From: an uncultured Chloroflexota bacterium
GTDB lineage: Bacteria > Chloroflexota > Anaerolineae > Anaerolineales > Villigracilaceae
Reading direction: 5' to 3'
Length of the DNA: 36,725 bases
Assembly: GCA_903914955.1 (NCBI GenBank)
Contig: CAIWRB010000300.1
Span: 1-36,725, forward strand
How positions within the stretch are numbered: the first letter of the stretch is position 1; every line of letters begins with the position of its first letter. The translations under genes and the position numbers were made by a program. Under the pieces are notes generated by a model. The model was not told where the DNA came from, made no database searches, and was given only the letters and a program-made list of their open reading frames with translations. Positions 7,583 to 24,024 of the stretch are shown here, in pieces.

Positions 7583-7645
7583 TTGAAAGCATTGTCCGCT
7601 GTTTGTTGTATCCCGCGCTTGCGGGAATTTGATTTCACAATATAA
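7583..7645 (+). CDS. Possible 20-codon leader peptide
   Basis: An extended Shine-Dalgarno match, AGGAGGTGA (7566-7574), stands 8 nt before a TTG that opens a 20-codon frame, MKALSAVCCIPRLREFDFTI, ending in TAA just before the real GGAGGAG site of the binding-protein gene. The ribosome-binding match is stronger than that of most genes here. The hairpin at 7611-7626 lies inside it. It is only a candidate: the TTG start and lack of homology leave it unproven. Confidence 0.25.
   Translation: MKALSAVCCIPRLREFDFTI
7611..7626 (+). promoter_or_regulatory. Small GC-rich hairpin upstream of the binding-protein ribosome-binding site
   Basis: TCCCGC (7611-7616) pairs with GCGGGA (7621-7626) around a GCTT loop, followed by ATTTGATTT. 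It lies 39 nt before the start codon and within the candidate leader peptide. Confidence 0.4.
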
Positions 7646-7664
7646 TTTTGGAGGAGTAAGAAAA

Positions 7665-8990
7665 ATGAATAAGCGTTTGTTCGCATTACTATCCGTGTTG
7701 GTTCTCGCCAGCATGATGCTCGCCGCTTGCGGTGCACCAGCTCCGGCTGCCACTGAAGCCCCCGCCGCTCCCGCCGCTACCGAAGCGCCTGTCGTCGCTA
7801 CCGAAGCTCCAGTTGCCGCTTTTCAATGCACCGACGCGATCGGTTGCGTAGATATCGCACCGGGCGAACCTGTACACATCGCCTATTGGGGTGTTCTCTC
7901 CGGCCCTGACAGCTCACTTGGCGAAGACTCCAAGCGTGGCGTTGAAATCGCCATTGACGACATGGGCGGTAAGTTCCAGGGTCATGATATTCTTTTGACC
8001 ACTGAAGATGCAGGCTGCACACCTGAAGGTGGCGCCACTGCCGCGACCAAACTCGCGACTGACACATCGATTGTAGGCCTGATCGGTTCCAGCTGCTCGG
8101 ATGAGACCGTTGGCGGTATCGCAACACTCACCAATGCAGGCCTGACCACCATCTCCCCATCCAATACCCGACCGGTTTTGACCAGCCCAGATCGCGGCCC
8201 AGACTATGCAGGTTACTTGCGCACCGCTCATAGCGATGCCTTCCAAGGCAAAGCCGTGGCTGAGTTCGCCTATAACTTTCTCAAGGTTACCAAAGCCGCA
8301 ACCCTGCACGATGGTTCGACCTATGCCCAGGCTCTTCAACAGGTTTTCGCCGATGAGTTCGTAAAACTCGGCGGAACGATCGTTGCTCAGGAAGCTGTCG
8401 CTAAGGATGCGACTGATATGAAGCCTGTACTTACCACCATTGCCGCGGCTAAACCTGAATTCCTTTACTACCCAGTATTTGTAGCCGTGGGCGGTTACGT
8501 CACCGCTCAGATCCGCGATGTTGCTGGTCTTGAAAATGTTAAGATCGCCGGTTCAGACGGTATCTTTACAGCTGACCTGCTCAAAGGCGGCGGCGAGAAC
8601 ACAAAGGGCATGTATCTTTCCAGCCCTGACTTCAGCGCCTTCACCGGCGACTATGCTGGCTTCATTGCGAAGCATACCGCCAAATATGGTGGTACAACAC
8701 TCTCCACCTTCCATGCTCATGCTTATGATGCCGCCAATATCCTATTTGCGGCTCTTGGAAAAGTAGCTGTTGCAGATGCAGACGGCACACTCCATGTTGG
8801 ACGTCAGGCTCTCCGTGACGCCATTTACGCCACAAAAGATTTCAAGGGCATCACAGGCACCCTCTCCTGCTCTCCCTCAGGTGATTGCGGCGCTCCCGTC
8901 ATCGCGGTTTACGAGATCATGAACTCCGATCCGGCCTCCTGGAATCCTTCAGACGCGACCAACCCGAATCCGAAGAAAATCTTCCCGTAG
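7665..8990 (+). CDS. Branched-chain amino acid-type ABC transporter substrate-binding lipoprotein
   Basis: The extracytoplasmic receptor of a Liv/HAAT importer (periplasmic-binding-protein fold, LivJ-like), 441 aa. A lipoprotein signal peptide ends in the lipobox LAAC with Cys22, then a low-complexity Ala/Pro/Thr/Glu linker (about 23-52) tethers the domain. The mature part has the family's opening IAYWGVLSGPDSSLGEDSKRG followed by GLIGSSCSDETVG. The ATG at 7665 has GGAGGAG 8 nt upstream; longer frames have no signal peptide at their N-terminus. It is the first gene of livJHMGF-like order. Ligand specificity is not readable, and HAAT receptors also bind amides, urea, betaine-like compounds and aromatic acids. 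Confidence 0.93.
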   Translation: MNKRLFALLSVLVLASMMLAACGAPAPAATEAPAAPAATEAPVVATEAPVAAFQCTDAIGCVDIAPGEPVHIAYWGVLSGPDSSLGEDSKRGVEIAIDDMGGKFQGHDILLTTEDAGCTPEGGATAATKLATDTSIVGLIGSSCSDETVGGIATLTNAGLTTISPSNTRPVLTSPDRGPDYAGYLRTAHSDAFQGKAVAEFAYNFLKVTKAATLHDGSTYAQALQQVFADEFVKLGGTIVAQEAVAKDATDMKPVLTTIAAAKPEFLYYPVFVAVGGYVTAQIRDVAGLENVKIAGSDGIFTADLLKGGGENTKGMYLSSPDFSAFTGDYAGFIAKHTAKYGGTTLSTFHAHAYDAANILFAALGKVAVADADGTLHVGRQALRDAIYATKDFKGITGTLSCSPSGDCGAPVIAVYEIMNSDPASWNPSDATNPNPKKIFP

Positions 8991-9015
8991 TTTGTAAGTT
9001 AATAAAGTAAGTCAA

Positions 9016-9049
9016 AATGATGAGGCAGACAAATGTCTGCCTCATCATT
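9016..9049 (+). promoter_or_regulatory. Intercistronic 16-bp stem-loop between binding protein and permease genes
   Basis: A perfect 16-bp inverted repeat (9016-9031 with 9034-9049) has a minimal loop and no following T run. Lacking a U tract, it is more likely a 3'-end stabiliser or partial terminator that keeps binding-protein mRNA more abundant than permease mRNA than a full stop. Confidence 0.7.
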
Positions 9050-9078
9050 AACACCTCTCAATTTCAAGGAGGCAGTCC

Positions 9079-10143
9079 ATGCGCACGAGTTTTGGCGAAC
9101 GATTATTAGATCTGGCAGTTAATGGTTTCCTTTGGGGATTTCGTATTTTAATCGTTGTAATCGTAGTACTAGGCACATTCTTAACGATCCGCGCCGGCAA
9201 ATACACTAGTGAACAGTGGATTGATTTTGTAGTTTTTGGAATCTCTCAAGGCAGCATTTATGCTCTGATAGCGCTTGGATATACAATGGTTTATGGTATC
9301 TTGCGCATGATCAATTTTGCTCACGGCGAAATTTTCATGAGCGGGGCTTTCGGCGGCTATTTCATCGCGACCTGGCTGACCGGTATCGGTTTTATGGATA
9401 AATACCCCGTATTTGGTTTAATAATTTCAATGATGTTCGGCATGCTTGTCTCAACCTTAATTGCCTTGTTGGTCGAACGCATTGCATATCGTCCCTTGCG
9501 CGGAGCGCCGCGTCTTGTGCCATTAATTAGCGCGATCGGTGCTTCATTTTTTCTGCAATATACATTCCGCGGTTTTTTTGGTCCCGGTGTTTATGCCTAC
9601 CCCAGCATGAAAGCGCTGGATGGTGAATGGATTTTTTTTGGTATCGGAATCCTTAAAGTTCAGATCGTTGTCACGATTGCCGCAGTAGTGATGATGAGCA
9701 TTTTATACTCCATCGTCATGTTCACGAAAATCGGCAAAGCCATGCGGGCTGTTTCCGAAAATAAAGATGTTGCCGCGTTGATGGGAATTGATGTCAATCG
9801 CATTATTGTGACCACATTTGCGTTAGGCGCTGCGATGGCAGGTGCGGCGGGCGTGCTATATGCATTGACCTATCGTCAGGTTAACTTCTTTACAGGCTTC
9901 ACTCCGGGCATTAAGGCATTTACCGCCGCTGTATTAGGAGGAATTGGCAACATACCGGGCGCCATGGTGGGCGGGCTTGTTCTTGGGATCGTCGAATCTG
10001 TAGGCCCCGCCCTTTTCCTCGATAGCATCGGCATTCCCCGTCCGTATCAACTCAAAGACGCGATTGCCTACATCATGCTGGTGATGATCCTGCTCTTCCG
10101 CCCATCTGGTATTCTGGGCGAACGCGTTTCCAAGAAGGCTTAA
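9079..10143 (+). CDS. livH: Branched-chain amino acid-type ABC transporter permease (LivH)
   Basis: The first membrane subunit of the Liv/HAAT importer, 354 aa with about eight hydrophobic segments. The LivH signature FGISQGSIYALIALGYTMVYG and NFAHGEIFM is present near residues 52-88, and the cytoplasmic coupling region has GKAMRAVSENKDVAALMGID. The C-terminus has AAVLGGIGNIPGAMVGG and FRPSGILG, as in LivH. An N-terminal extra membrane segment (about 15-40) precedes the core. AAGGAGG lies just before the ATG. It is followed by the LivM gene after 10 nt. Confidence 0.93.
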   Translation: MRTSFGERLLDLAVNGFLWGFRILIVVIVVLGTFLTIRAGKYTSEQWIDFVVFGISQGSIYALIALGYTMVYGILRMINFAHGEIFMSGAFGGYFIATWLTGIGFMDKYPVFGLIISMMFGMLVSTLIALLVERIAYRPLRGAPRLVPLISAIGASFFLQYTFRGFFGPGVYAYPSMKALDGEWIFFGIGILKVQIVVTIAAVVMMSILYSIVMFTKIGKAMRAVSENKDVAALMGIDVNRIIVTTFALGAAMAGAAGVLYALTYRQVNFFTGFTPGIKAFTAAVLGGIGNIPGAMVGGLVLGIVESVGPALFLDSIGIPRPYQLKDAIAYIMLVMILLFRPSGILGERVSKKA

Positions 10144-10153
10144 CAGGGTAAAA

Positions 10154-11908
10154 ATGATGATAAAAAAAGAAAATCTCATCTGGATTGCCATCAAAACCGG
10201 TCTGCTCAGCGGTGTTATTGCAATATTTCTTTGCCTGATTGGTATGATAGAAGTATTTAGCAAACGTGATGTAATCGAACATATCATCACGCTGGGAGAT
10301 TTTATACTTCTGGTCTCAGCTGTTTCTGCAGGAATAATTGCTGCGCGAGCGGCCTCAAACCCGGATCAAGAAAAACAACCCCTCAAAAACTATCTCGCGG
10401 GGGCACTTGCAGGACTAACCACTGGTATATTGATCATCGCGTTTATTGGACTAAGCCAGACGATCAACCTGCGCAGTGTATTTCTAAGCGCATCACCCTC
10501 GCTATTTAAACTGCTCACATTCAAAGGCGGAACAAGTTGGATATGGATATATCCTTCGATCGGTTTAGCATCAGGTCTACTGGGGACGACCTTGTTTCTC
10601 CTGCCTGAAAAATTCCGCCAGCCCATCACGCGCGCGATCTTCATTACTTTTTTAATGGCGCTATTCTCAGGTCTTTTCCGCGTGATTATGATCAACCGCG
10701 CAGGCAGTATCGCCAAATTAGCAAAATACCTGTTTGGACAAACCGGCCTTACCCTAAGCGGCGCGACCATATTCTTTGTCGCTATTATTGCTATTTCCAT
10801 GTTTTGGACTGCTCGATCCAAAAACCTTCAGGAAGGTTTTTCTCGTATTCCTAAAGCAGGCCAAACCAGTCTACGAGTGGCATTATATGTCTTGCTTGCA
10901 TATGTGGTAATTATGTTACCTCAGGTATCCGGGCCATTCATCGCTCAGGTCGTCGTTATCGTCAGTCTATATGCCCTGATGGGACTTGGACTCAATATTA
11001 CACTTGGATTTGCAGGTCTGCTGGATCTTGGTTTCGTGGCATTCTTCGCAGTCGGCGCCTATACAGTTGGTTTGCTCACATCCTACGGCATATTTGGATT
11101 ACAACATATCCCCTTCTGGGTAGCAGTACCGATTGCAGTTTTAGTTGCAATGATGTTTGGAGCATTTCTTGGCTTGCCTGTACTCGGCGTACGCGGTGAC
11201 TACCTGGCAATTGCCACACTAGGCTTCGGAGAAATTGTCCGCTTGCTCGCTGGATCAGATTTCCTGGCACCATTCTTCGGTGGCCCACAAGGTATCATCG
11301 GCATTCAAAAACCATGCCTTGGCACGCTAGGGGAATTTTTAAAAGTAGACGTGCCGCGAATCTGTAATGGCATAGAGTTCGGAGGCCCGAAAGAAATTTA
11401 CTATCTTGCCGTCGCTAGCGCAATATTGGTCGCTTTTATTGCATTGCGATTACAAAAATCACGGCTGGGCCGCGCGTGGATGGCTATTCGCGAAGATGAA
11501 GATGTGGCAGAAGCTCTTGGTATCAACTTGATCCAGACAAAATTGCTTGCATACATGCTCGGCGCGGCATTTGCCGGGTTGGGAGGTGCAATTTTTACTG
11601 TATTGGTTGGTTCCATATTTGCCACCAGTATGCAGTTGATCGTTTCCATCAATGTTGTCGCTCTGATCATTGTCGGTGGGATGGGAAGTATTCCCGGCGT
11701 AATCGTCGGCGCCATCGCCTTGATCGGTATGCCTGAGCTTCTCCGTGAAGTTTCAGAATATCGCTTCCTGTTCTACGGGGCAGCTTTAATTATGATGATG
11801 CTTGCCAAGCCAGAAGGTTTATGGCCGTCTCAAGCCACACTTCGGGAATTACATCATGAAGATCCTGGCGAAGATTTAGATGTAGCGTCGTCACAGGCAA
11901 AGGCATAG
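10154..11908 (+). CDS. livM: Branched-chain amino acid-type ABC transporter permease (LivM) with long N-terminal membrane extension
   Basis: The second membrane subunit of the importer. The LivM core starts near residue 240: NITLGFAGLLDLGFVAFFAVGAYT, then GVRGDYLAIATLGFGEIVRLL, then GRAWMAIREDEDVAEALGIN (coupling helix) and a C-terminal GGMGSIPGVIVGA. The total is 584 aa, against about 320-430 aa for typical LivM. The first ~240 residues form an additional block of about six hydrophobic segments that does not resemble the permease core. ATG codons at 10154 and 10157 are both possible starts, with AGGG upstream. The LivG gene begins 10 nt after the stop codon. Confidence 0.9.
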   Translation: MMIKKENLIWIAIKTGLLSGVIAIFLCLIGMIEVFSKRDVIEHIITLGDFILLVSAVSAGIIAARAASNPDQEKQPLKNYLAGALAGLTTGILIIAFIGLSQTINLRSVFLSASPSLFKLLTFKGGTSWIWIYPSIGLASGLLGTTLFLLPEKFRQPITRAIFITFLMALFSGLFRVIMINRAGSIAKLAKYLFGQTGLTLSGATIFFVAIIAISMFWTARSKNLQEGFSRIPKAGQTSLRVALYVLLAYVVIMLPQVSGPFIAQVVVIVSLYALMGLGLNITLGFAGLLDLGFVAFFAVGAYTVGLLTSYGIFGLQHIPFWVAVPIAVLVAMMFGAFLGLPVLGVRGDYLAIATLGFGEIVRLLAGSDFLAPFFGGPQGIIGIQKPCLGTLGEFLKVDVPRICNGIEFGGPKEIYYLAVASAILVAFIALRLQKSRLGRAWMAIREDEDVAEALGINLIQTKLLAYMLGAAFAGLGGAIFTVLVGSIFATSMQLIVSINVVALIIVGGMGSIPGVIVGAIALIGMPELLREVSEYRFLFYGAALIMMMLAKPEGLWPSQATLRELHHEDPGEDLDVASSQAKA

Positions 11909-11918
11909 AGAGGTCTCA

Positions 11919-12752
11919 ATGGCTATTATCTTATCCGCAAAAAAAGTCATCAAACGCTTCGGCGGCCTGGTTGCTGTCAACTCGGTGGATTTTGACATAC
12001 CAGAAAAATCCATCGTCAGCATTATCGGACCCAACGGCGCAGGCAAGACCACGTTCTTCAATATGATCACAGGTTTTGGAAAGATCGACGAAGGGGAAAT
12101 TTCCTTCGAAGGAACCCCCATTCACCGCTTGCGACCTGACCAGATCACAAATCGCGGCATCTCTCGCACGTATCAGAATATCCGCTTGTTTCCAGACATG
12201 ACTGCGCTTGAGAATATCCTGGTTGGCCAGCATCTATTCTTACACTCAAGTTGGATCAGCGCTGTACTCGGCACACCCAGAGTTCGCGCAGAGGAACAAA
12301 TGGCTCTGGAGGAAGCGCAAAGATTGCTAAATTTTGTTAACCTAAAAGGAAAAGGAGATATGCTCGCCCGCAATCTGCCTTATGGTGCGCAGCGACGGCT
12401 TGAAATTGCCCGCGCGCTCGCGACCAAACCCAAATTATTGTTGCTGGATGAACCCTCTGCGGGCATGAACCCTCGCGAAACAGAAGATCTGACAGAGTTC
12501 ATTCACCGCATCCGCGATGATCTCGGTATCGCGATCCTGCTCATCGAACATCACATGCGCGTTGTGATGGGTATTTCCGAGCGCATCACCGTACTCGATT
12601 ACGGTGAGAAGATCGCAGAAGGCACTCCATCCGAAATCCAGAGCAATCCGCGCGTGATTGAAGCGTATCTCGGCCGCGGGGCTGCCACTGAGGGTATGGC
12701 AAATGCCCATGAGCGTTATTCAGACAATAAGACCGAAACACCATCACAGTAG
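11919..12752 (+). CDS. livG: Branched-chain amino acid-type ABC transporter ATPase LivG
   Basis: A nucleotide-binding subunit of 277 aa. It has Walker A (GPNGAGKTT), the Liv-type Q-loop region with GISRTYQNIRLFPDMTALENILVG, a signature-like YGAQRRLEIARAL (the LSGGQ position is YGAQR, usual for LivG), Walker B LLLLDEPSAGMNP and the H-loop IEHHM. It ends with the LivG-type tail EGTPSEIQSNPRVIEAYLG. It pairs with LivF as the ATPase heterodimer. The gene lies 6 nt before livF. Confidence 0.94.
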   Translation: MAIILSAKKVIKRFGGLVAVNSVDFDIPEKSIVSIIGPNGAGKTTFFNMITGFGKIDEGEISFEGTPIHRLRPDQITNRGISRTYQNIRLFPDMTALENILVGQHLFLHSSWISAVLGTPRVRAEEQMALEEAQRLLNFVNLKGKGDMLARNLPYGAQRRLEIARALATKPKLLLLDEPSAGMNPRETEDLTEFIHRIRDDLGIAILLIEHHMRVVMGISERITVLDYGEKIAEGTPSEIQSNPRVIEAYLGRGAATEGMANAHERYSDNKTETPSQ

Positions 12753-12758
12753 GCCAAA

Positions 12759-13472
12759 ATGAGCATATTAAATATTGAAAACGTTCACACCTACTACGGC
12801 AACATTCACGCCCTAAAAGGTATAAACATTAACATCGAGAAGGGTGAAATTGTGACCCTGATCGGAGGCAATGGCGCCGGAAAAACAACCACCCTTCGAA
12901 CTATTTCAGGTTTGTTAAAACCACGAGAAGGAAGCGTCAGCTTGAACGGCGAGGATATCCTGAAATATCAAGCCCATGAGATTGTCTACAAAGGCATCTC
13001 GATGGTACCGGAGGGACGCGGCGTATTTGCCCGCCTGACAGTGTTGGAAAACCTTGAAATGGGTGCGTTCAGCCGTAACAGCAAGGAAGAAGTAACCCGC
13101 AACATGAATAGGGTATTTACACTCTTCCCTCGCCTAAAGGAACGTCGGACGCAGGTAGCTGGCACACTCTCCGGCGGCGAACAACAAATGCTCGCGACTG
13201 GGCGTGGTCTAATGTCGAACCCAACCATTCTTCTAATGGATGAACCCTCCATGGGACTTGCTCCTGTTTTAGTGGAATTGATCTTTGATACCATCCAGCA
13301 GATCAACAAGGAAGGTACGACGATCATGTTGGTAGAACAAAACGCCTTAATGGCTTTGACCATTGCCGATCGCGGCTACGTTCTACAAACCGGTGAAATC
13401 ATTCTCAGCGACACCGCAGAAAATCTGAAGAAAAACCCCACCGTACAAAAAGCGTATCTGGGCATGGAATAG
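12759..13472 (+). CDS. livF: Branched-chain amino acid-type ABC transporter ATPase LivF
   Basis: The second ATPase subunit, 237 aa, the usual LivF size. It opens with the LivF-typical NVHTYYGNIHALKGI, then Walker A GGNGAGKTTTLRTI, the MVPEGRGVFARLTVLENL block, the signature LSGGEQQMLATGR, Walker B ILLMDEPSMGLAP and the H-loop LVEQN. It is the last gene of the transporter operon, followed by a terminator. Confidence 0.95.
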   Translation: MSILNIENVHTYYGNIHALKGININIEKGEIVTLIGGNGAGKTTTLRTISGLLKPREGSVSLNGEDILKYQAHEIVYKGISMVPEGRGVFARLTVLENLEMGAFSRNSKEEVTRNMNRVFTLFPRLKERRTQVAGTLSGGEQQMLATGRGLMSNPTILLMDEPSMGLAPVLVELIFDTIQQINKEGTTIMLVEQNALMALTIADRGYVLQTGEIILSDTAENLKKNPTVQKAYLGME

Positions 13473-13493
13473 AAATAGCTAACGAAATAGTCT

Positions 13494-13529
13494 AAGCGCA
13501 GAGGTAAAATATTATCTCTGCGCTTTTGA
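13494..13529 (+). terminator. Terminator of the Liv operon
   Basis: A 14-bp stem with one G-U pair (13494-13507 with 13512-13525) and a 4-nt loop is followed by a short TTGATT. It lies after livF and before the ribosome-binding site of the next gene, so it separates the two units at least partly. Confidence 0.65.
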
Positions 13530-13545
13530 TTGCCTGGAGGATTCA

Positions 13546-14535
13546 ATGCTGATACTTAATGCCGAGGAAGTTCGCAAAGCCCTTCCCATGCACCAAGCTA
13601 TAGAGGCGATGAAGCAGGCTTACGCCTCGCTCTCTAGCGGTAAAGCGGAAGTTCCCCTGAGAACACGCCTATCTATTTCTCCTCATGAAGCGGTAAGCCT
13701 GTTCATGCCCGCATATCTTCAAACGAACGAAACCGAAGCGCTGGCAATAAAAGTAGTTTCGATCTTTCCGAATAATCCCGCGCAGGGTCTGGCTCTCATT
13801 CAAGCCGCAGTACTTGCTCTGGATCCTGAAACGGGCCGCACCATTGCTCTGCTTGAAGGGGGGATGATCACCGCCATACGCACAGGCGCAGGAAGCGGTG
13901 CTGCAATTGACATTTTATCCCGCACGGATAGCCGTGTGGTTGCCATTTTTGGAGCAGGCGCGCAGGGACGTACCCAACTCGAAGCCGCATGCACTGTCCG
14001 TAAAATTGAAAAAGTATGGATTTATGACTCAGACACGAAGAGAGCTGAAGCCTTCGCGAAGGAAATGGCGGGGCGAGGCCCAATTCCTGCCGACGTTCAA
14101 CCTGCAGCTACAAGCCGGGAAGCAGCGGCCGAAGCAGACATCATCTGCACAGCAACAACTTCAACATTCCCCGTATTTATGGATAAAGACGTCAAATCAG
14201 GTACCCACATCTCAGCCATTGGATCGTACACTTCCGAAATGCAGGAAGTGCCGGGAGAAACCATCCAACGTGCAAAAGTGATCGTTGATTCACGTTCAGC
14301 AGTATTAGCCGAATCTGGCGACTTAATCAAACCGATACAAAGCGGGATGATCAGCGAGTCACATATTTTTGCAGAACTCGGAGAGATCGTGCTAGGCAAA
14401 AAAACTGGCAGACAATCCACTGAAGAGATCACGGTTTTCAAATCAGTTGGAGTGGCAGTGCAAGATGCGATGGCCGCGCAGTTGGCACTCAGAAACGCAA
14501 AGATCATGAAGCTGGGACAGGACATTCCCTTCTAA
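13546..14535 (+). CDS. Ornithine cyclodeaminase / mu-crystallin family enzyme
   Basis: An NAD(P)-dependent enzyme of 329 aa in the OCD/mu-crystallin family. Members deaminate ornithine to proline, reduce cyclic ketimines or act as alanine or N-methylalanine dehydrogenases. Visible are the substrate-side strand KVVSIFPNNPAQGL, the EGGMITAIRTGAGSG segment, the Rossmann loop IFGAGAQGRTQ (about 134-144) and CTATTSTFPVF followed by GTHISAIGSY. CTGGAGG lies 6 nt before the ATG. It starts a short run with the FAD oxidoreductase 18 nt downstream, directly after the Liv transporter. Family membership is firm. The exact reaction is not: OCD, ketimine reductase or alanine dehydrogenase remain possible. 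Confidence 0.85.
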   Translation: MLILNAEEVRKALPMHQAIEAMKQAYASLSSGKAEVPLRTRLSISPHEAVSLFMPAYLQTNETEALAIKVVSIFPNNPAQGLALIQAAVLALDPETGRTIALLEGGMITAIRTGAGSGAAIDILSRTDSRVVAIFGAGAQGRTQLEAACTVRKIEKVWIYDSDTKRAEAFAKEMAGRGPIPADVQPAATSREAAAEADIICTATTSTFPVFMDKDVKSGTHISAIGSYTSEMQEVPGETIQRAKVIVDSRSAVLAESGDLIKPIQSGMISESHIFAELGEIVLGKKTGRQSTEEITVFKSVGVAVQDAMAAQLALRNAKIMKLGQDIPF

Positions 14536-14553
14536 ATAAAAAGGATAACTCAC

Positions 14554-15711
14554 ATGAACGAATTACCAAACACAGCAGACATTGTTATTATCGGGGGCGG
14601 AGTGATGGGAGCCAGCGCGGCATACCATCTGGCCAAACGCGGAATGAAACACATCGTTTTGCTCGAAAAAGAGAATTTCTTTGGGCAGGGAGCAACTGGC
14701 AGATGCGCGGGCGGAGTACGGTATCAATTTTCAACTGAGATCAATGTAAAACTTTCAATTGAAAGCCTGCCCATGCTCGAAAGATTCAAAGAAGAAATTG
14801 GACAGGACGTTAGTTACAAACAATGCGGATATCTTCTGGTTGCCACAAATGAAAAAGATGCCAATACCTTCAAACGCAATGTGGAATTGCAAAACAAACT
14901 CGGTGTACCAACCCAACTCCTGAGCGGGGATGAAGTCCGCAAACGCTTGCCACTGATGAAATTTGACGACGCGCTCGCAGGCACGTTCAATCAAAAAGAC
15001 GGCATCGTTGACCCGAACAGTGTGGTGATGGGATACATCAGCGCGGCGCAAAAAATGGGCGTAAAGGCCCTCACAGATGCGGAAGTGCTTGGGATAACTC
15101 TCAGTGGTGATCAAGTTGAAGAGGTGCAAACAACCCTCGGCATAATTAAGACGCGCATGATATTGAACGCAGCGGGACCATGGGCGAGTCCTATAGGCAA
15201 AATGGCAGGAGTCCAACTTCCAGTCGTCCCTCTGCGCAGGCAGATGTTTACAACGAGTGCGCTGAAAGAAGTCCCTGCTGATTTTCCATTCGTGATCGAT
15301 TTTGCAAAATCGCTTTATTTTCATCGTGAGAGTGAAGGCTTGCTGATCGGCATGAGCAATCATAATGAACAGCCTGGCTTTGATCAAAATGTGGATGAAG
15401 ATTTTGAATTGACAAATCTCGACGCCGCAATTGAGCGAATGCCTGTGGTGGAAAAGGCGCAGCGCGCTTCACATTGGGCGGGATTATATGAAGTAACACC
15501 CGACGCGCACCCGATATTTGGTAATACAAATACAAATGGTTTTTTTGTATGCACGGGATTTTCAGGGCATGGGTTTATGCACGGCCCGATCTCAGGAAAA
15601 TTGATGAGTGAGTTTATTTTGGATGGCAAATTTTCAAGCCTGGATGTTTCGATGCTTGACCTGAAACGCTTCGAGGAAAGCCGTTTGATTCAAGAGTACA
15701 ATGTAGTTTAA
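14554..15711 (+). CDS. FAD-dependent amino acid oxidoreductase (DAO family, sarcosine oxidase beta-like)
   Basis: A flavoprotein of 385 aa in the D-amino-acid oxidase (DAO) superfamily. The N-terminal dinucleotide motif IIGGGVMGASAAYHLAKRG is followed by the Glu that binds the ribose (LLEKE). The ATGRCAGGVRYQFS segment resembles the FAD-binding loop of sarcosine oxidase beta and related proline or dimethylglycine dehydrogenases. The C-terminus has GLYEVTPDAHPIFG and CTGFSGHGFMHGP, typical of this group. The likely substrate is a secondary or N-methyl amino acid such as sarcosine or proline. Its pairing with an OCD-family gene fits amino-acid or imino-acid catabolism. No sarcosine oxidase alpha, gamma or delta gene is nearby, so it probably acts alone or with partners elsewhere. 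Confidence 0.82.
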   Translation: MNELPNTADIVIIGGGVMGASAAYHLAKRGMKHIVLLEKENFFGQGATGRCAGGVRYQFSTEINVKLSIESLPMLERFKEEIGQDVSYKQCGYLLVATNEKDANTFKRNVELQNKLGVPTQLLSGDEVRKRLPLMKFDDALAGTFNQKDGIVDPNSVVMGYISAAQKMGVKALTDAEVLGITLSGDQVEEVQTTLGIIKTRMILNAAGPWASPIGKMAGVQLPVVPLRRQMFTTSALKEVPADFPFVIDFAKSLYFHRESEGLLIGMSNHNEQPGFDQNVDEDFELTNLDAAIERMPVVEKAQRASHWAGLYEVTPDAHPIFGNTNTNGFFVCTGFSGHGFMHGPISGKLMSEFILDGKFSSLDVSMLDLKRFEESRLIQEYNVV

Positions 15712-15749: not shown

Positions 15750-16877
15750 ATGACATCCGCAGAAATTATCACCATTGGAACTGAAATATTACTCGGCGAG
15801 ATCGTGGATACCAACACACGTTATCTTGCGCGCAATTTGCGCGGACTTGGCATTGACCTGTACCGCACGATCACCATCGGCGATAACGAAGAACGCATTG
15901 CCGGCGCCATTCGCGAATCAATGGAACGCGCAGATATTGTCATCACCACTGGTGGGCTTGGCCCAACAATAGACGACCCCACACGTGACGCCGTGGCAAA
16001 AGCCATGGGCGTGGAAACAGAATTTCGCGAAGACCTCTGGCAACAAGTGGTCGCGACCATCGCGCGCTATGGACGCACGCCATCTGAAAATCAGAAACGG
16101 CAGGCGTATGTTCCAAAGGGCGCGCTCGGAATTCTAAATCCTGTTGGCACTGCGCCTTGTTTTATTGTTGAAACACCGCGCAACGCGATCATCTCTTTGC
16201 CTGGCGTCCCAAACGAAATGGAACATGTTTTACACGAGTCCATCATTCCCTATTTGCAAAAAAGATTCAACCTTAATGAAATTATAAAAGTTCGGGTATT
16301 ACATTGCTCGGGTCTCGGCGAAGGCATGATTGACGAAAAAATTTCGGATCTTGAAATGTTAAGCAACCCCACGGTTGGCTTGGCCGCACACACAGGCGTT
16401 GTGGATATACGTATCGCCGCGAAGGCAAAAAGCGAAAGTGAAGCGAATATCATGATCGCGGAGATCGAGTCGCAAGTCCGCGAAAGACTCGGGAATGTTG
16501 TCTTTGGAGCGGATGAAGATAAACTCGAAGAGGTCACATTGGACCTGATCGCCCGCCGCGGCTGGACTCTAACCGCAGTCGAATCGGGTCTCGATGGGAT
16601 TCTTGCCCGTAAAATTCCGCACAGCGCATCTTTTCCTAATCTGACAGCTGATGCATTGATGCAAACATTACGCGCCGCCCAAGCAGAATCGCAAGCAGAT
16701 ATCGCCCTGGGTGTTTCTGTTTATTCCGAAGATCGCTCCGCTGAAATGGCCATGATCACACCACTCGGCGAAAAAACACATCATATTACCTATGGCGGGC
16801 CCACGCGAAGTCTGCAATACTGGGCTATGAACCTTGCTCTCAACTGGCTGCGGACAAGTGTAGAGGAAATGAAATAA
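15750..16877 (+). CDS. cinA: CinA-like protein with degenerate C-terminal domain
   Basis: A CinA-family protein of 375 aa. The N-terminal MoCF-like (COG1058) domain is complete: IITIGTEILLGEIVDTNTRYLA, TTGGLGPTIDDPTRDAVAKA, PGVPNEMEHV. In the family this domain is an ADP-ribose/NAD-related pyrophosphatase. The C-terminal CinA/PncC domain, normally about 160 residues with NMN deamidase activity, is only about 115 residues here. The usual AESCTGG is replaced by AVESGLDG, and the normal GGVVAYSN-type strand and glycine-rich AGP segment are not recognisable. The deamidase function is therefore probably lost. No clear ribosome-binding site precedes the ATG. The stop codon overlaps the next start (TAATG). 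Confidence 0.85.
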   Translation: MTSAEIITIGTEILLGEIVDTNTRYLARNLRGLGIDLYRTITIGDNEERIAGAIRESMERADIVITTGGLGPTIDDPTRDAVAKAMGVETEFREDLWQQVVATIARYGRTPSENQKRQAYVPKGALGILNPVGTAPCFIVETPRNAIISLPGVPNEMEHVLHESIIPYLQKRFNLNEIIKVRVLHCSGLGEGMIDEKISDLEMLSNPTVGLAAHTGVVDIRIAAKAKSESEANIMIAEIESQVRERLGNVVFGADEDKLEEVTLDLIARRGWTLTAVESGLDGILARKIPHSASFPNLTADALMQTLRAAQAESQADIALGVSVYSEDRSAEMAMITPLGEKTHHITYGGPTRSLQYWAMNLALNWLRTSVEEMK

Positions 16878-17854
16878 TGCCCCCAGCACGCCACAGCAAC
16901 GATTCTTTCTTGGTGACTGTGGCATGGGCGCTGAATATTGCGGGATTAGCTGGTATCGCGCTCGTGCTGATAGCATATTGGGCATTCCAACCTGCACTCG
17001 CCGCGCCACAAAACTCAAATTCCATATCAACTTCCGCCCTGCCTGCAACTTATACACCGAATCCAAATTCGCTTTATTTACCCACGGTCACACCAAATCC
17101 ACGTTCGACATTGATCGTTGTCCAAACGCAAACGCCTTTTGTGCTCGAAAACAGCACCACGCGCCCAGTCACAATCGGGTATTCGGTTTCAGGTCGGCCG
17201 ATCGAAGTTTATACATTTGGAAATGGAGAACGACAACGCATGATCGTGGCCGGCATTCACGGCGGCTATGAATGGAATACCATCGCGCTCGCAGATGAAT
17301 TGATCAAATCTATAAACGATAATCCGTCAATCATTCCATCCGATGTCACACTTTTTGTTCTGCGCAACATGAATCCAGATGGTGATGCCAGGGATCATGG
17401 GATCGATGGCCGCGTCAACGATCATGGAGTGGACTTGAATCGCAACTTCCCCACCAATTGGGCTGCAGACTGGGATCGCGAAGGATGTTGGAATTACGGA
17501 CCAACTACGGGAGGAACTGGTCCAGCCTCCGAACCAGAAACCCGCGCCGTGATGGGATTCCTGCAAAATCATAGAGTTGAAACATTGATCAGTTATCATA
17601 GTGCGGCTCTCGGCGTTTTCCCTGGCGGTGAACCCTGGGAGGAAATATCGACCCGATTTGCAAAAGCGCTTGCGAAGGAGACAGGATATCCATTTCCGCC
17701 AATAGACACAGGTTGCATATTTACCGGCACACTCGCAGACTATGCCGTGGAGCTAGGCGCAGTCGCCGTAGACATGGAACTATCCACTCATAAATCCACA
17801 GACTTCAAAAAAAATGTAAATGCGTTGAAAATATTATTGAATTGGCAAAAATAA
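16877..17854 (+). CDS. M14-family zinc carboxypeptidase, membrane-anchored
   Basis: A peptidase of 325 aa with one N-terminal membrane segment (about 12-37) and a Ser/Thr/Pro/Asn-rich linker. The extracytoplasmic M14 domain starts at about 97. The zinc ligands are in HGGYE (His128, Glu132) and SYHSA (His241). VDLNRNFP supplies the Asn-Arg substrate-binding pair, and Glu301 in VDMELSTH is the catalytic base. All key residues are present. Related M14 proteins cut peptidoglycan stem peptides (MpaA, gamma-D-Glu-mDAP amidase type) or peptides. The protein is translationally coupled to cinA through TAATG. Confidence 0.85.
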   Translation: MPPARHSNDSFLVTVAWALNIAGLAGIALVLIAYWAFQPALAAPQNSNSISTSALPATYTPNPNSLYLPTVTPNPRSTLIVVQTQTPFVLENSTTRPVTIGYSVSGRPIEVYTFGNGERQRMIVAGIHGGYEWNTIALADELIKSINDNPSIIPSDVTLFVLRNMNPDGDARDHGIDGRVNDHGVDLNRNFPTNWAADWDREGCWNYGPTTGGTGPASEPETRAVMGFLQNHRVETLISYHSAALGVFPGGEPWEEISTRFAKALAKETGYPFPPIDTGCIFTGTLADYAVELGAVAVDMELSTHKSTDFKKNVNALKILLNWQK

Positions 17855-17965: not shown

Positions 17966-19948
17966 ATGACTCAAAACGTAAATACCCTATTCACGAATGC
18001 CATCGTCCTCACAATGGATGGAAAATTAAACCAATATGACCGCGGCGCGGTTGCAGTACGAGATGACATGATCGTTGCTGTCGGCGCGGAATCTGAAATA
18101 ACAAAAGAATATTCGGCTGACGAAACGATTGATTGCGGCGGCAAAGTACTCATGCCTGGACTTATCAATGCGCACACACATGTCCCCATGACCCTCCTGC
18201 GTGGTCTCGCCGATGACCTGCGCCTTGATGTCTGGCTGATGGGTTACATGCTTCCTGTTGAACGTGAATTCGTTACCCCGGAATTTGTTCGGCTTGGAAC
18301 CTTGCTCGCCTGTGCAGAACAGATTCGCAGCGGCGTGACCACCTTTAACGATATGTACTTCTTCGAGGACGCAATCGCCCAGGCCACAGCAGACGCGGGC
18401 ATGCGCGCAGTCTGCGGGCAAAGCGTGATGAAATATCCCGCGCCGGATGCCCCCTCATTTGAAGTATCTCTTGCGATGGCGCGTGAATTCATCAAGAAGT
18501 GGAAAGGACACCCGCTGATCGTCCCGGCGGTTGCTCCGCATGCTCCCTACTCCACAACACCAGAGATCTTGCGAACATGCGCCAACCTGGCCAGGGAATT
18601 CGATGTGCCTTTGCACATTCACATTTCTGAAACTGCGTTTGAGGTCGAAACCATGCGAAACGAACAAGGCATGCCTGTCGTTCCGTATGTTAAAAAACAG
18701 GGCGTGCTCGTAGCAAAAGTGATTGCTGCGCATTGCGTCCACATTGACTTTGGCGAAATGAAAACGCTGAAACATGTGAATGCGGGTATCGCCCATAACC
18801 CTTCCTCAAATCTAAAACTTGCTTCAGGATTTGCCCCCGTACAAAAAATGCTGGAGACTGGTCTCAACGTGGGTATCGGCACCGATGGTCCCGCATCAAA
18901 TAATGATCTCGATATGTTTGAAGAAATGCGTCTGGCCTCCTTCGTTGCGAAAGCATCCAGCAATGACCCGACGGTCGTTCCAGCAGCGACTGCGCTCCTG
19001 ATGGCTACCCGCATGGGGGCGCAAGCGCTCCATATTGGACATTTGACAGGATCGCTCGAAGCAGGCAAACGCGCCGACTTGATATTGGTGGACACATCCC
19101 CCGTCCACAATTCTCCACGCTTCCGCCGTGACCCGAACAATGCCTACGCTCAACTGGTATTCGCGTCCAAATCGACAGACGTGACTGATGTGATGGTTAA
19201 TGGAAAATGGTTGATGCGTGCGCACGAATTGCTCACGTTGAATGAAGCTGAGCTTCTCGGGCAGGCGCGTGAAATTGCGCAGAAGATTGACGCATTCCTG
19301 ATCGAACGCGAACAATCCATACTTTCAAAATTGATCGCGCTCGGCGGCTCGATGGAACAGGAATCTTTCGAGGTGCAGGTCAAGGTCAAGGTCGCGGAAC
19401 CAGATCTATTAATTCAGAACATGCAGCGGACTGAGATCGAAATTAACGCATACAAGCATTATCTTCAATATGACGAGTATTACATGTTCGAAGATCCAGC
19501 GCAGGGACGGCTACGCTTCCGCGAAGATAATTTGATCAACGAAAAAGGTGATGTTGAGAATGTGCGCTCACGCCTAACATTGCTTGGTCAAAAACGAGAA
19601 GGCGAGATCGGACATGACGTGCTGCTTTCACGCAGTCGTTTCCTTGCGCCTGCTGTGCACACATCACGTTTCTATCGCGAATACTTCAAACCAAAACAGG
19701 TTATTTCCATTGAAAAAGACCGCCTACGCTGGCATATCAAATATAAAGAAACTGAGTTCTTTATTAATCTCGATCACATGAAAGACCCTGCAAACATGGG
19801 ATATTTCCTTGAGATCAAAAGCCGAACTTGGAGCCGAAAAGATGCCGATCTTAAAGCAGATTTGGTCAATGAACTGCTAAACCTGCTTGGTCTGGGTGAT
19901 GCAGAAACAGTTATACAAGATTATATCGAGACCTTGTTACCGCAATAA
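17966..19948 (+). CDS. MtaD-like amidohydrolase fused to a CYTH-like domain
   Basis: A two-domain protein of 660 aa. Residues 1-450 are a metal-dependent amidohydrolase of the 5'-methylthioadenosine/S-adenosylhomocysteine deaminase (MtaD/TrzN/SsnA) group: AHTHVPMTLLRGLADDL (His70, His72), HIHISE (His217, His219, Glu222), AAHCVHID (His256) and GTDGPASNNDLDM (Asp307). The catalytic set is complete. Residues about 465-655 look like a CYTH/triphosphate-tunnel domain: an ExExK-like EVQVK (469-473; the second Glu is Gln), RLRFRE (515-520), SRLTLLGQKREGE, SIEKDRLRWHI and FLEIKSR. CAGGAG lies 5 nt before the ATG. The likely reaction of the N-terminal part is deamination of SAH, MTA or a similar purine or triazine; the CYTH role is unknown. 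Confidence 0.82.
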   Translation: MTQNVNTLFTNAIVLTMDGKLNQYDRGAVAVRDDMIVAVGAESEITKEYSADETIDCGGKVLMPGLINAHTHVPMTLLRGLADDLRLDVWLMGYMLPVEREFVTPEFVRLGTLLACAEQIRSGVTTFNDMYFFEDAIAQATADAGMRAVCGQSVMKYPAPDAPSFEVSLAMAREFIKKWKGHPLIVPAVAPHAPYSTTPEILRTCANLAREFDVPLHIHISETAFEVETMRNEQGMPVVPYVKKQGVLVAKVIAAHCVHIDFGEMKTLKHVNAGIAHNPSSNLKLASGFAPVQKMLETGLNVGIGTDGPASNNDLDMFEEMRLASFVAKASSNDPTVVPAATALLMATRMGAQALHIGHLTGSLEAGKRADLILVDTSPVHNSPRFRRDPNNAYAQLVFASKSTDVTDVMVNGKWLMRAHELLTLNEAELLGQAREIAQKIDAFLIEREQSILSKLIALGGSMEQESFEVQVKVKVAEPDLLIQNMQRTEIEINAYKHYLQYDEYYMFEDPAQGRLRFREDNLINEKGDVENVRSRLTLLGQKREGEIGHDVLLSRSRFLAPAVHTSRFYREYFKPKQVISIEKDRLRWHIKYKETEFFINLDHMKDPANMGYFLEIKSRTWSRKDADLKADLVNELLNLLGLGDAETVIQDYIETLLPQ

Positions 19949-22533: not shown

Positions 22534-24024
22534 TTATTTAATTTCCACAGAAATATTATATGGGATCAATGGAAACCACGGCCACCAGACTGGAACGAGG
22601 TCAATGATGGGATCATCGCGCAATGAAAAATTAGAGGCTAATTCTTTTTTTACTGAATTCAATTGATGCCCGCGCACAATTGAAAAAACCTTCATCTTAT
22701 CCACTTGACGAAGTAATGTGCGGGTCACTTCAAGGTCAAAATGTGTGAGTCCAGATGTGTCCGTTGACGGGTCGGTGAGTATTTTCAATTTCTGTGCTCC
22801 AAAAGGTGCAAAGCCGTCGGTTATGGATGTATCCAATGTTGCTGATGTGAGCTGGTCAACATCATCCGCCAGGACATACTGAACGGAATATTCAACCTGC
22901 ATGTTTAAACTCAGATCCTTACCAGGCTGACCTGCTGCAGGTTCATAAACCTCGTTCACTACTTTCAAAACCTCCAGAGTGTCCGATAACAAAATATCGT
23001 TTGGCCCGATCTGCGCGAGCAATTTAGATTCAGCATCGCGACTCAAATTCTCTAAAACAATTTTGCGTAATTTCTCACGGTCAACATCAGTGGCTCCAGT
23101 CACTTTTGAATCCGCGCCGCCTGTGATCGGATTCGAGTTGGAGACAGCGATTGAAAGTCCAAGGGGACCATCCACAACAAGCACCGACTCGCCTGGAACG
23201 TTTCCACTTGCGCCGGATTGAAGCGCCTCGATCGGCACATCCAAAAATTTATCGAGGCCGGGTTCAAGAAAGGTATCGTGCAGGGTAATAAACTTAATGG
23301 GCAATTCAGTCACAGTTGAAACGATCGTGCCAGCGCGAATATTCACCTCAGTCTGACCGAGATTTCTAAACCGTGCAATTCCCTGTGACTTGGATTTCGG
23401 AACAGTGATATTACTCGTGACGGCAAAAGACTGTTTGGTATCAACTGTGATCGATAACCCCCGTGCAGGGACCGCACCCGTTACAGACACCGACTTTACA
23501 GACTGACTCGCTGTGACTGGGATGATTACGCTTTGGGTCTGCGATTCTGGAAATAAGGTTAACCTCACATGCGGGACAAATAAGCCTGCCACTACCAAAA
23601 CAGCGATTACTCCCGCTGTAAAAGACAGTATGCGCCCAAGCAGGGATGTCCGCCACGCGTCTTCTTTCTCGTACACAATATCTCGAATCTTCCGCAGGTC
23701 ACGGCGCGGCGTCTTCGGGATACGCCTGCTTCTCGGACCAGAATCAGGCCACGGATCACGCTGAGCAGCTACTGTCGACTTGAAGACAGGAATTCCCAAC
23801 GATTCCGCATCCCTCCTGACTTTTGCGCGGCGAGTTACCAATCCCAATTGCGCGCCTAACGAATCTGCGTGTCTATGAAGAACTTTTAGATCAAGCACAC
23901 GCAGAATTATTTTTTCATATTTGGGCCAGACGAGTAAAATACGCGGCGTCTTTGCCCACGAAAATTTATCGCGGACAGAGATGAGGTCATCGTGAGATTC
24001 CAGAGTGATAATTTTTGTTTTCAA
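22534..24024 (-). CDS. Membrane-anchored baseplate J/gp47-like protein
   Basis: A protein of 496 aa with an N-terminal cytoplasmic region of about 125 basic residues, which resembles a nucleotide or signalling fold. One membrane segment (about 132-152) is followed by an extracytoplasmic region. The extracytoplasmic part resembles the baseplate J-like domain: FRNLGQTEVNIRAGTIVST, then PIEALQSGASGNVP, the order seen in gp47/J proteins. No other phage or contractile-injection gene is present, so it is not evidence of a prophage. It shares strand and spacing with ruvX and mltG, which points to an envelope role. The only possible start is a TTG at 24024 without a visible ribosome-binding site; an in-frame stop lies five codons upstream. 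Confidence 0.65.
   Translation of the reverse strand: MKTKIITLESHDDLISVRDKFSWAKTPRILLVWPKYEKIILRVLDLKVLHRHADSLGAQLGLVTRRAKVRRDAESLGIPVFKSTVAAQRDPWPDSGPRSRRIPKTPRRDLRKIRDIVYEKEDAWRTSLLGRILSFTAGVIAVLVVAGLFVPHVRLTLFPESQTQSVIIPVTASQSVKSVSVTGAVPARGLSITVDTKQSFAVTSNITVPKSKSQGIARFRNLGQTEVNIRAGTIVSTVTELPIKFITLHDTFLEPGLDKFLDVPIEALQSGASGNVPGESVLVVDGPLGLSIAVSNSNPITGGADSKVTGATDVDREKLRKIVLENLSRDAESKLLAQIGPNDILLSDTLEVLKVVNEVYEPAAGQPGKDLSLNMQVEYSVQYVLADDVDQLTSATLDTSITDGFAPFGAQKLKILTDPSTDTSGLTHFDLEVTRTLLRQVDKMKVFSIVRGHQLNSVKKELASNFSLRDDPIIDLVPVWWPWFPLIPYNISVEIK

Follow-up and report, generated by a model that had tools for sequence, protein, structure and literature searches.

The question raised by one gene in a 36,725-nucleotide stretch of DNA from an uncultured Chloroflexota bacterium (contig CAIWRB010000300.1; the whole stretch is called the window) is why an enzyme of the 5'-methylthioadenosine/S-adenosylhomocysteine (MTA/SAH) deaminase type should end in a triphosphate tunnel (TTM) domain of the CYTH kind. 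The open reading frame at 17966-19948 on the forward strand is uninterrupted and encodes 660 amino acids from an ATG start. Sequence, two AlphaFold models and phylum-wide conservation support the fusion of a deaminase-type amidohydrolase with a CYTH/TTM fold, and this fusion is real, old and conserved. The folds are known, their combination was not found described in open-licence papers, the catalytic metal site of the second domain is degenerate, and the architecture is conserved across the phylum. The proposal put forward here, which has about an even chance of being right, is that a triphosphate-binding domain that does not hydrolyse its ligand regulates a purine-nucleoside deaminase, in a protein that looks bifunctional and is probably mono-catalytic. 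Conservation counts refer to 79 distinct sequences (from 88, duplicates discarded), with the partial L063 and the near-identical genus members L005-L033 left out. The gene is laid out as follows.

17966..19948, forward strand: the fused gene, 660 amino acids, with amidohydrolase, linker and TTM/CYTH-fold domain in one open frame; the same layout is found in the 79 distinct aligned sequences.
17966..19294, forward strand: the amidohydrolase part, residues 1-443, of the MTA/SAH/adenosine-deaminase type (Pfam 5.6e-73; structure matches; phmmer 1e-94 to 4f0r).
19286..19348, forward strand: the linker, residues 441-461 (F444 in 78/79, R448 in 77/79, E449 in 78/79, K455 in 79/79).
19349..19945, forward strand: the C-terminal TTM/CYTH-fold domain, residues 462-660 (AlphaFold2 model, Foldseek, VIA).

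The initial annotation of this DNA had raised the concern that a frameshift or an assembly error near 19,340-19,370 joins two separate genes. This explanation is already refuted and its probability is negligible: an identical joint, at an E449-E469 distance of 20 to 24 residues, is found in the 79 distinct sequences and in 79 of 80 named loci, the best of at least 528 relatives from one genome scan, and the fused proteins form a single group in a tree of the deaminase part; what speaks for an artefact is one internal stop in the frames of a few relatives (G066, G077, G339 and G208). All 80 named loci come from genomes with Chloroflexota-type names, Anaerolinea and Brevefilum included; L143 has both parts in one frame but is shortened, and L169, the one locus without both, begins inside the domain near a contig end. 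When 151 relatives' genomes are searched, 138 have the domain; among the 100 genomes with completeness of 90% or more and contamination of 5% or less, the figure is 95. The whole protein has some match in 196 of the 199 genomes of the class, and the fused frame, with a match that passes residue 500 into the second domain, is present in 114 of them (counted by rows, a few cut by contig ends). The other 85 class genomes comprise 3 without a match, 2 with partial strong matches (G154 and G271) and the rest with best matches at 8e-113 or weaker, which are other amidohydrolases where the rows are listed. A sample of 251 genomes from the phylum has the domain in 51. Four families outside the class account for 24 of these 51, and all 18 that were fetched of the 24 are fused, one being cut by a contig end. 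Both parts share one frame in 59 of 60 fetched stretches; the N-terminal part is cut in L063, and L120, a weak match, features neither part. Five short frames considered as stand-alone copies of the domain (G034, G041, G061, G064 and G130) each run to a contig end. A weak match considered as a stand-alone copy (G138:C27, E 2.5e-4) was rejected, as tblastn shows no relationship. Viral contigs gave 46 pattern matches, none of them a relative, and plasmids gave no match to the one family member used as query. Unfused amidohydrolase relatives, L205-L224, share 35-44% identity, and in three genomes (G235, G174 and G208) an unfused copy accompanies the fused one.

The tree of the deaminase part compares 76 fused sequences from the class and the phylum with 19 unfused ones that all belong to the class and were picked from the listed rows; it was built by a quick method with no bootstrap. 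A single branch (SH-aLRT 99) separates the 76 fused deaminase halves from the unfused ones, with two unfused rows on long branches and a program warning of possibly false joins. Within this tree sample one origin of the fusion is supported. Distances in the deaminase part and in the domain correlate (Mantel r 0.84, a value that none of 999 permutations reaches). Nei-Gojobori ratios of nonsynonymous to synonymous change (dN/dS) for the window protein against eleven relatives are 0.03-0.07 in the deaminase part (8 of 11 comparisons estimable) and 0.03-0.18 in the domain (6 of 11 estimable, the others saturated), indicating that both domains are under purifying selection where dS can be estimated. 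Two positions of the deaminase part, V89 and G93 (18230-18244 in the window), are invariant in the 76 fused sequences and are mostly other residues in the 19 unfused ones, of which 10 have Arg at the first position and 16 have Glu at the second. They are a possible mark of specificity or of an interface.

The N-terminal part has the fold and the metal site of a deaminase-type amidohydrolase. Pfam places Amidohydro_1 at residues 61-416 of the 660-residue protein (5.6e-73). The full-length AlphaFold2 model (predicted local distance difference test, pLDDT, 80.7; predicted template modelling score, pTM, 0.71) matches adenosine and MTA deaminase structures over residues 1-445, with VIA Z-scores of 47.9 for 4dzh, 46.8 for 4dyk, 46.5 for 4f0r and 42.8 for TM0936 (1p1m); identity to 4f0r is 37% (phmmer 1e-94). 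The initial annotation had reported a complete set of metal-binding residues, and each of them is indeed present and identical in 79/79, as is H192.

18173..18181, forward strand: H70-x-H72, metal ligands by homology, 79/79.
18620..18631, forward strand: H219 and E222, metal ligand and catalytic acid by homology, 79/79.
18731..18733, forward strand: H256, 79/79.
18884..18886, forward strand: D307, metal ligand by homology, 79/79.

The roles of H70, H72, H219 and E222 are those established for the amidohydrolase superfamily. The features of MTA/SAH deaminases, namely HxH, H, H and D metal ligands with an HxxE catalytic acid in an amidohydrolase fold, are all present, and nothing in the sequence suggests a dead active site. 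The fusion therefore resembles 4f0r/4f0s, 4dyk/4gbd and TM0936 in the fold of residues 1-445 and in the metal and catalytic set, whereas it differs from the MTA/SAH and MTA/adenosine deaminase structures by about 217 extra residues that form the TTM-fold domain. The best NCBIfam matches are TRZ/ATZ-hydrolase and MTA/SAH/5'-deoxyadenosine deaminase models, and the fusion scores below the MTA/SAH deaminase equivalog cut-offs: none of the best 25 of 69 models reaches its own (PRK09045, 459.7 bits against 540; PRK06038, 418.7 against 609; PRK15493, 296.1 against 779).

The C-terminal domain was identified mainly through its predicted structure. The Pfam CYTH match at residues 469-637 is sub-threshold with the whole protein (E 0.0068, 16.7 bits), and the C-terminal part alone scores E 0.00089 and 19.6 bits against PF01928, below the gathering cut-off of 23.2; 8 of 15 family members match PF01928 at E <= 0.01, the best at 5.8e-9. 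The CYTH-like motifs named by the initial annotation (EVQVK, RLRFRE, SIEKDRLRWHI and FLEIKSR) are all found in this part, and the structure prediction it had proposed for residues 455-660 gives the beta tunnel whose absence would have spoken against a CYTH domain (AlphaFold2, 50 sequences, pLDDT 87.2, pTM 0.84). Foldseek with this domain model ranks the archaeal SaTTM (7ns9) first with E 1.6e-9 and probability 1.00, then CyaB 2fjt and 7z67, and at lower ranks AtTTM3, thiamine triphosphatase (ThTPase) and YgiF with Mediator chains interspersed. VIA-align determined Z 18.0 for PH1819 (2een; root-mean-square deviation, rmsd, 2.5; 169 aligned), 16.8 for SaTTM (rmsd 2.3, 166 aligned), 16.4-16.6 for CyaB structures (3n0z at 16.6, rmsd 2.7, 167 aligned), 15.0 for the kinase-TTM module 7z67, 14.3 for YgiF (5a60; rmsd 3.1, 172 aligned), 13.8 for the Mediator chain 7lbm_k (rmsd 2.8, 170 aligned), 12.3 for Med8C/18 (3c0t_A) and 9.3 for Vtc4p (3g3r; rmsd 3.9, 170 aligned). 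A sequence search of the PDB with the domain profile returned nothing significant (best 0.29 to MutS; 2aca 2.8), so that the fold assignment depends on the model, by which the domain is a member of the TTM fold superfamily.

The closest solved folds are SaTTM and PH1819, at 20% identity. SaTTM is a single-domain triphosphatase with intact ExExK and ExE motifs in cluster 3 of the CYTH network (PMC8233210), whereas the fusion domain features ExQxK and ExK and stands behind an amidohydrolase. Of the ten largest CYTH clusters described there, only 1, 4 and 7 are multidomain (PMC8233210). YgiF (CYTH-CHAD) and AtTTM1/2 (kinase-CYTH) are multidomain proteins with a TTM domain, as the fusion is, but their partner is a CHAD or a kinase domain rather than an amidohydrolase. 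The conserved motifs of the fusion domain are listed below.

19370..19384, forward strand: E469-x-Q471-x-K473, an altered ExExK, 79/79; the register comes from a weak hhalign match to the host's own CYTH protein.
19514..19528, forward strand: R517-x-R519-E520-D521, triphosphate-binding arginines by homology (R517, R519 and E520 79/79, D521 77/79).
19667..19687, forward strand: R568-F-Y-R-E572-Y-F, a helix of the AlphaFold2 model just before the long strand (R568 and E572 79/79).
19715..19729, forward strand: K584-x-R586-x-R588, basic tunnel residues by homology, 79/79.
19811..19846, forward strand: E616-x-K618-S-R-T-W622-S-x-x-D626-A, an altered ExE with the start of the next helix (E616, K618, W622 and D626 79/79).

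The hallmark of CYTH enzymes is ExExK, that of the cyclases is HFxxxxExExK and that of the ThTPases is W/YxRxR (PMC8233210). The initial annotation had observed that the second Glu of ExExK is Gln, and the fusion domain carries ExQxK in 79/79; it had overlooked that the ExE motif of the last strand is altered as well, reading ExK in 79/79 with the first Glu retained. The basic triphosphate-binding set (K473, R517, R519, K584, R586 and R588, matched by motif) is kept in 79/79. D503, Y505 and D603 are also identical in all sequences, and R556 and R558 are variable, at 75/79 and 76/79. In YgiF, metal 1 holds the triphosphate with Glu160 as ligand, metal 2 activates the water with Glu4, Glu6 and Glu162 as ligands, and hydrolysis is impaired by changing Glu6, or Glu4 of AtTTM3 (PMC4641920). 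Matched to YgiF by motif, E616 (Glu160) and E469 (Glu4) are kept, and Q471 and K618 replace Glu6 and Glu162, so that two of the three glutamates of the putative catalytic site are swapped for an invariant Gln and an invariant Lys. The early suspicion that hydrolysis may be impaired is made more likely by these two invariant changes. The tunnel and the site-1 Glu are kept and two catalytic-site glutamates are replaced; the domain therefore most likely binds without hydrolysing. The host has a separate canonical CYTH protein (G000:C113) with ExExK (EIEAK) and ExE (EIE) intact.

The thiamine triphosphatase mark W/YxRxR is absent, residue 515 being Arg here and in 60/79 and Tyr in 4. It is very improbable that the domain is a class IV adenylate cyclase (AC-IV) that makes cAMP beside the deaminase. 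Its best NCBIfam match is cyaB, at 20.4 bits, and CyaB structures align at the Z-scores given above, but the bit score is far under the cut-off of 57.95, the HF motif of AC-IV is absent (this protein has M/E at 463/464, where the other sequences mostly have Q, E or R), and the altered ExE ends in Lys rather than Ala. Additionally, the gate-keeping first Arg, R517, is kept in 79/79, whereas AC-IV proteins feature a small residue there (PMC8233210).

A further explanation, rather unlikely on the present evidence, is that the TTM domain is itself catalytic, with a centre rebuilt around a site-1-only metal and the Lys, so that the protein does two steps. It would be a pyrophosphatase like plant TTM1/2, or a phosphotransferase or polymerase like Vtc4p. 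The retained basic tunnel and site-1 Glu agree with this, as do the fold matches to 7z67 and Vtc4p. In Vtc4p, which appears to have metal site 1 only, basic residues replace the acidic patch (PMC4641920), and the second-position Lys of the altered ExE is reminiscent of them. The fusion domain likewise keeps site 1 and not site 2, though its fold match to Vtc4p, a polyphosphate polymerase with Lys458 as catalytic residue, is only Z 9.3. The nearest folds, however, are archaeal TTM and CyaB and not Vtc4p. The gene neighbourhood also argues against it: in 54 of the more distant (deep) loci there are 48 close same-strand neighbours, and the 20 that are annotated include one nucleoside phosphorylase, two dephospho-CoA kinases and no polyphosphate gene.

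It is also conceivable, but unlikely, that the domain is a structural, oligomerisation or protein/RNA-binding module like the Mediator subunit, with no small ligand. The fold is common to the Mediator chains 7lbm_k and 3c0t_A, and several invariant motifs (RFYREYF and TWSxxDA) carry no catalytic residues known to us. The charged tunnel residues K473, R517, R519, K584, R586, R588 and E616, identical in 79/79, would be unneeded in such a scaffold.

In the preferred mechanism the N-terminal metal-dependent amidohydrolase would deaminate a 6-aminopurine nucleoside of the MTA/SAH/5'-deoxyadenosine class. The TTM domain retains the basic tunnel and, at metal site 1, the glutamate, both needed for a triphosphate-metal complex, and would bind ATP, another nucleoside triphosphate, tripolyphosphate or an alarmone without hydrolysing it. 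The ligand-bound domain would then tune the deaminase through the conserved linker. Linker residues 441-461 are conserved about as well as the domain (mean top-residue frequency 0.65, against 0.61 in the domain and 0.70 in the deaminase core), and the E449-E469 spacing is 20 residues in 71/79 sequences. This constrained linker fits a fixed interface.

Several points weigh against regulation by a bound, unhydrolysed ligand. A fixed interface is possible for structural reasons without allostery, and the dN/dS of the 21-residue linker, 0 to 0.13 in all comparisons bar one, reaches 0.50 in that one. The full-length model, with a pTM of 0.71, bears on the fold of the parts rather than on their relative placement. 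The residue register rests mainly on motifs and the shared fold: the hhalign match to the host CYTH protein, which sets ExQxK over ExExK and ExK over ExE, is weak (E 0.0053, probability 2.9%), and direct alignment of the domain to YgiF failed. Loss of a site-2 Glu is not proof of lost catalysis: the second Glu of ExE is missing from AC-IV cyclases, and AtTTM1/2, which like the fusion domain lack the two acidic motifs, are nevertheless reported to act on pyrophosphate (PMC8233210). No nucleotide-signalling gene is present among the 20 annotated of the 48 close deep neighbours.

The initial annotation had called the protein MtaD-like, which holds for the fold and the metal site but less surely for the substrate, as the host has separate MTA, SAH and probably adenosine enzymes. 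In the host, MtnA, a PfkB-type sugar/nucleoside-kinase-like protein and SahH adjoin in a compact methionine/SAH salvage cluster (G000:C198; L230 3770-7324). Preference for SAH is linked to HxTxE and preference for S-inosylhomocysteine (SIH) to HxExK (PMC10978960). The host SahH reads HVTTE (three other SahH proteins read HITTE, HVTTE and HMTIQ), and the SAH-to-SIH route of M. jannaschii and T. maritima, which calls for an HxExK partner hydrolase, was set aside for this host because its SahH features HxTxE. The host MTA phosphorylase (MTAP) scores 309.2 bits against a cut-off of 274.85, which 16 of 21 genomes exceed, and reads TDYDVW. TDYDVW is the adenine-type motif of MTAP, and methylthioinosine (MTI) could still be accepted. 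The MTA-to-MTI route is weakened because the host MTAP passes its cut-off and carries this motif. The host also has two matches to the adenosine-deaminase family. In the 199 class genomes SahH occurs in 187, PNP_UDP_1 in 197 and the adenosine-deaminase family in 120; SahH and PNP_UDP_1, being nearly universal, do not discriminate. MTA and SAH are weak candidate substrates in this host, and redundancy excludes neither. Since other host enzymes serve MTA, SAH and probably adenosine, exclusion leaves 5'-deoxyadenosine or another, less usual nucleoside, which is more likely here than MTA or SAH. DadD of M. jannaschii is named after 5'-deoxyadenosine as its substrate (PMC10978960, PMC6302742).

Conserved neighbours were considered as a functional clue and rejected, as the deep loci share no common theme. 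Directly upstream in the window, at 15750-17854, are CinA-type (MoCF + KH) and M14 carboxypeptidase genes, families that recur in 62 and 55 of 140 loci (the window included), nearly all close relatives; in the deep loci L063-L122 the CinA-type is present in 3 and M14 in 0. The partners met most often in the deep loci are ABC-type ATPases, at 8 loci, and, in the families beyond the class, a dephospho-CoA kinase cluster, at 10 loci. The dephospho-CoA kinase gene lies directly downstream on the same strand at -17 to +36 bp in eight loci (L064, L067, L069, L071, L072, L075, L076 and L078), overlaps the fusion by 4 bases in three, and two of its products are annotated as CoaE (9.2e-52 and 8.5e-53). 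In one class member, L099, the fusion is followed after 7 bp by a pyrimidine-nucleoside phosphorylase gene, which lends weak support to the preferred explanation. The other annotated deep neighbours are an inositol-monophosphatase-family protein, RNase III, RecO, an M20 peptidase and unrelated families, with five that have no Pfam match.

Elsewhere in the window, 7629-15711 encodes the binding protein, two permeases and two ATPases of a branched-chain-amino-acid-type ABC transporter, and after them come an ornithine-cyclodeaminase-family gene and a sarcosine-oxidase-like FAD gene. On the reverse strand, 22534-24024, which adjoins RuvX and MltG genes, encodes a 496-residue protein that matches Baseplate_J at 28.8 bits against a cut-off of 21.1; the cluster of this protein is found in 40/140 loci. 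The segment 24154-35633 features a GntR-type regulator, a corrinoid-binding protein, four trimethylamine-methyltransferase-family (MTTB) genes, an S9-peptidase-like gene, an M20-peptidase-like gene and a pterin-binding protein, and by its gene content looks like a methylamine/betaine-type methyl-transfer cluster.

No description of the amidohydrolase-CYTH/TTM architecture was found in the open-licence literature, a scope that leaves subscription journals, database annotations and the founding CYTH paper of Iyer and Aravind outside. In the available text of the same literature, the only co-occurrence of CYTH with Chloroflexi concerns PIWI proteins and Mediator. The physiological function of TTM proteins is described as largely elusive (PMC8233210). 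These proteins are widespread, and the conserved deaminase fusion links one of them to purine-nucleoside salvage as its likely pathway. It is possible, though somewhat short of even, that this is a phylum-wide family in which a TTM domain has turned from hydrolase to sensor, with a ligand held on metal site 1 alone that sets the rate of a nucleoside deaminase. To our knowledge, allosteric nucleotide sensing on behalf of a metabolic enzyme has not been described for any TTM domain. The fusion domain is a natural variant in which the binding of a triphosphate may be uncoupled from its hydrolysis, and a large group of Chloroflexota proteins gains a testable role.

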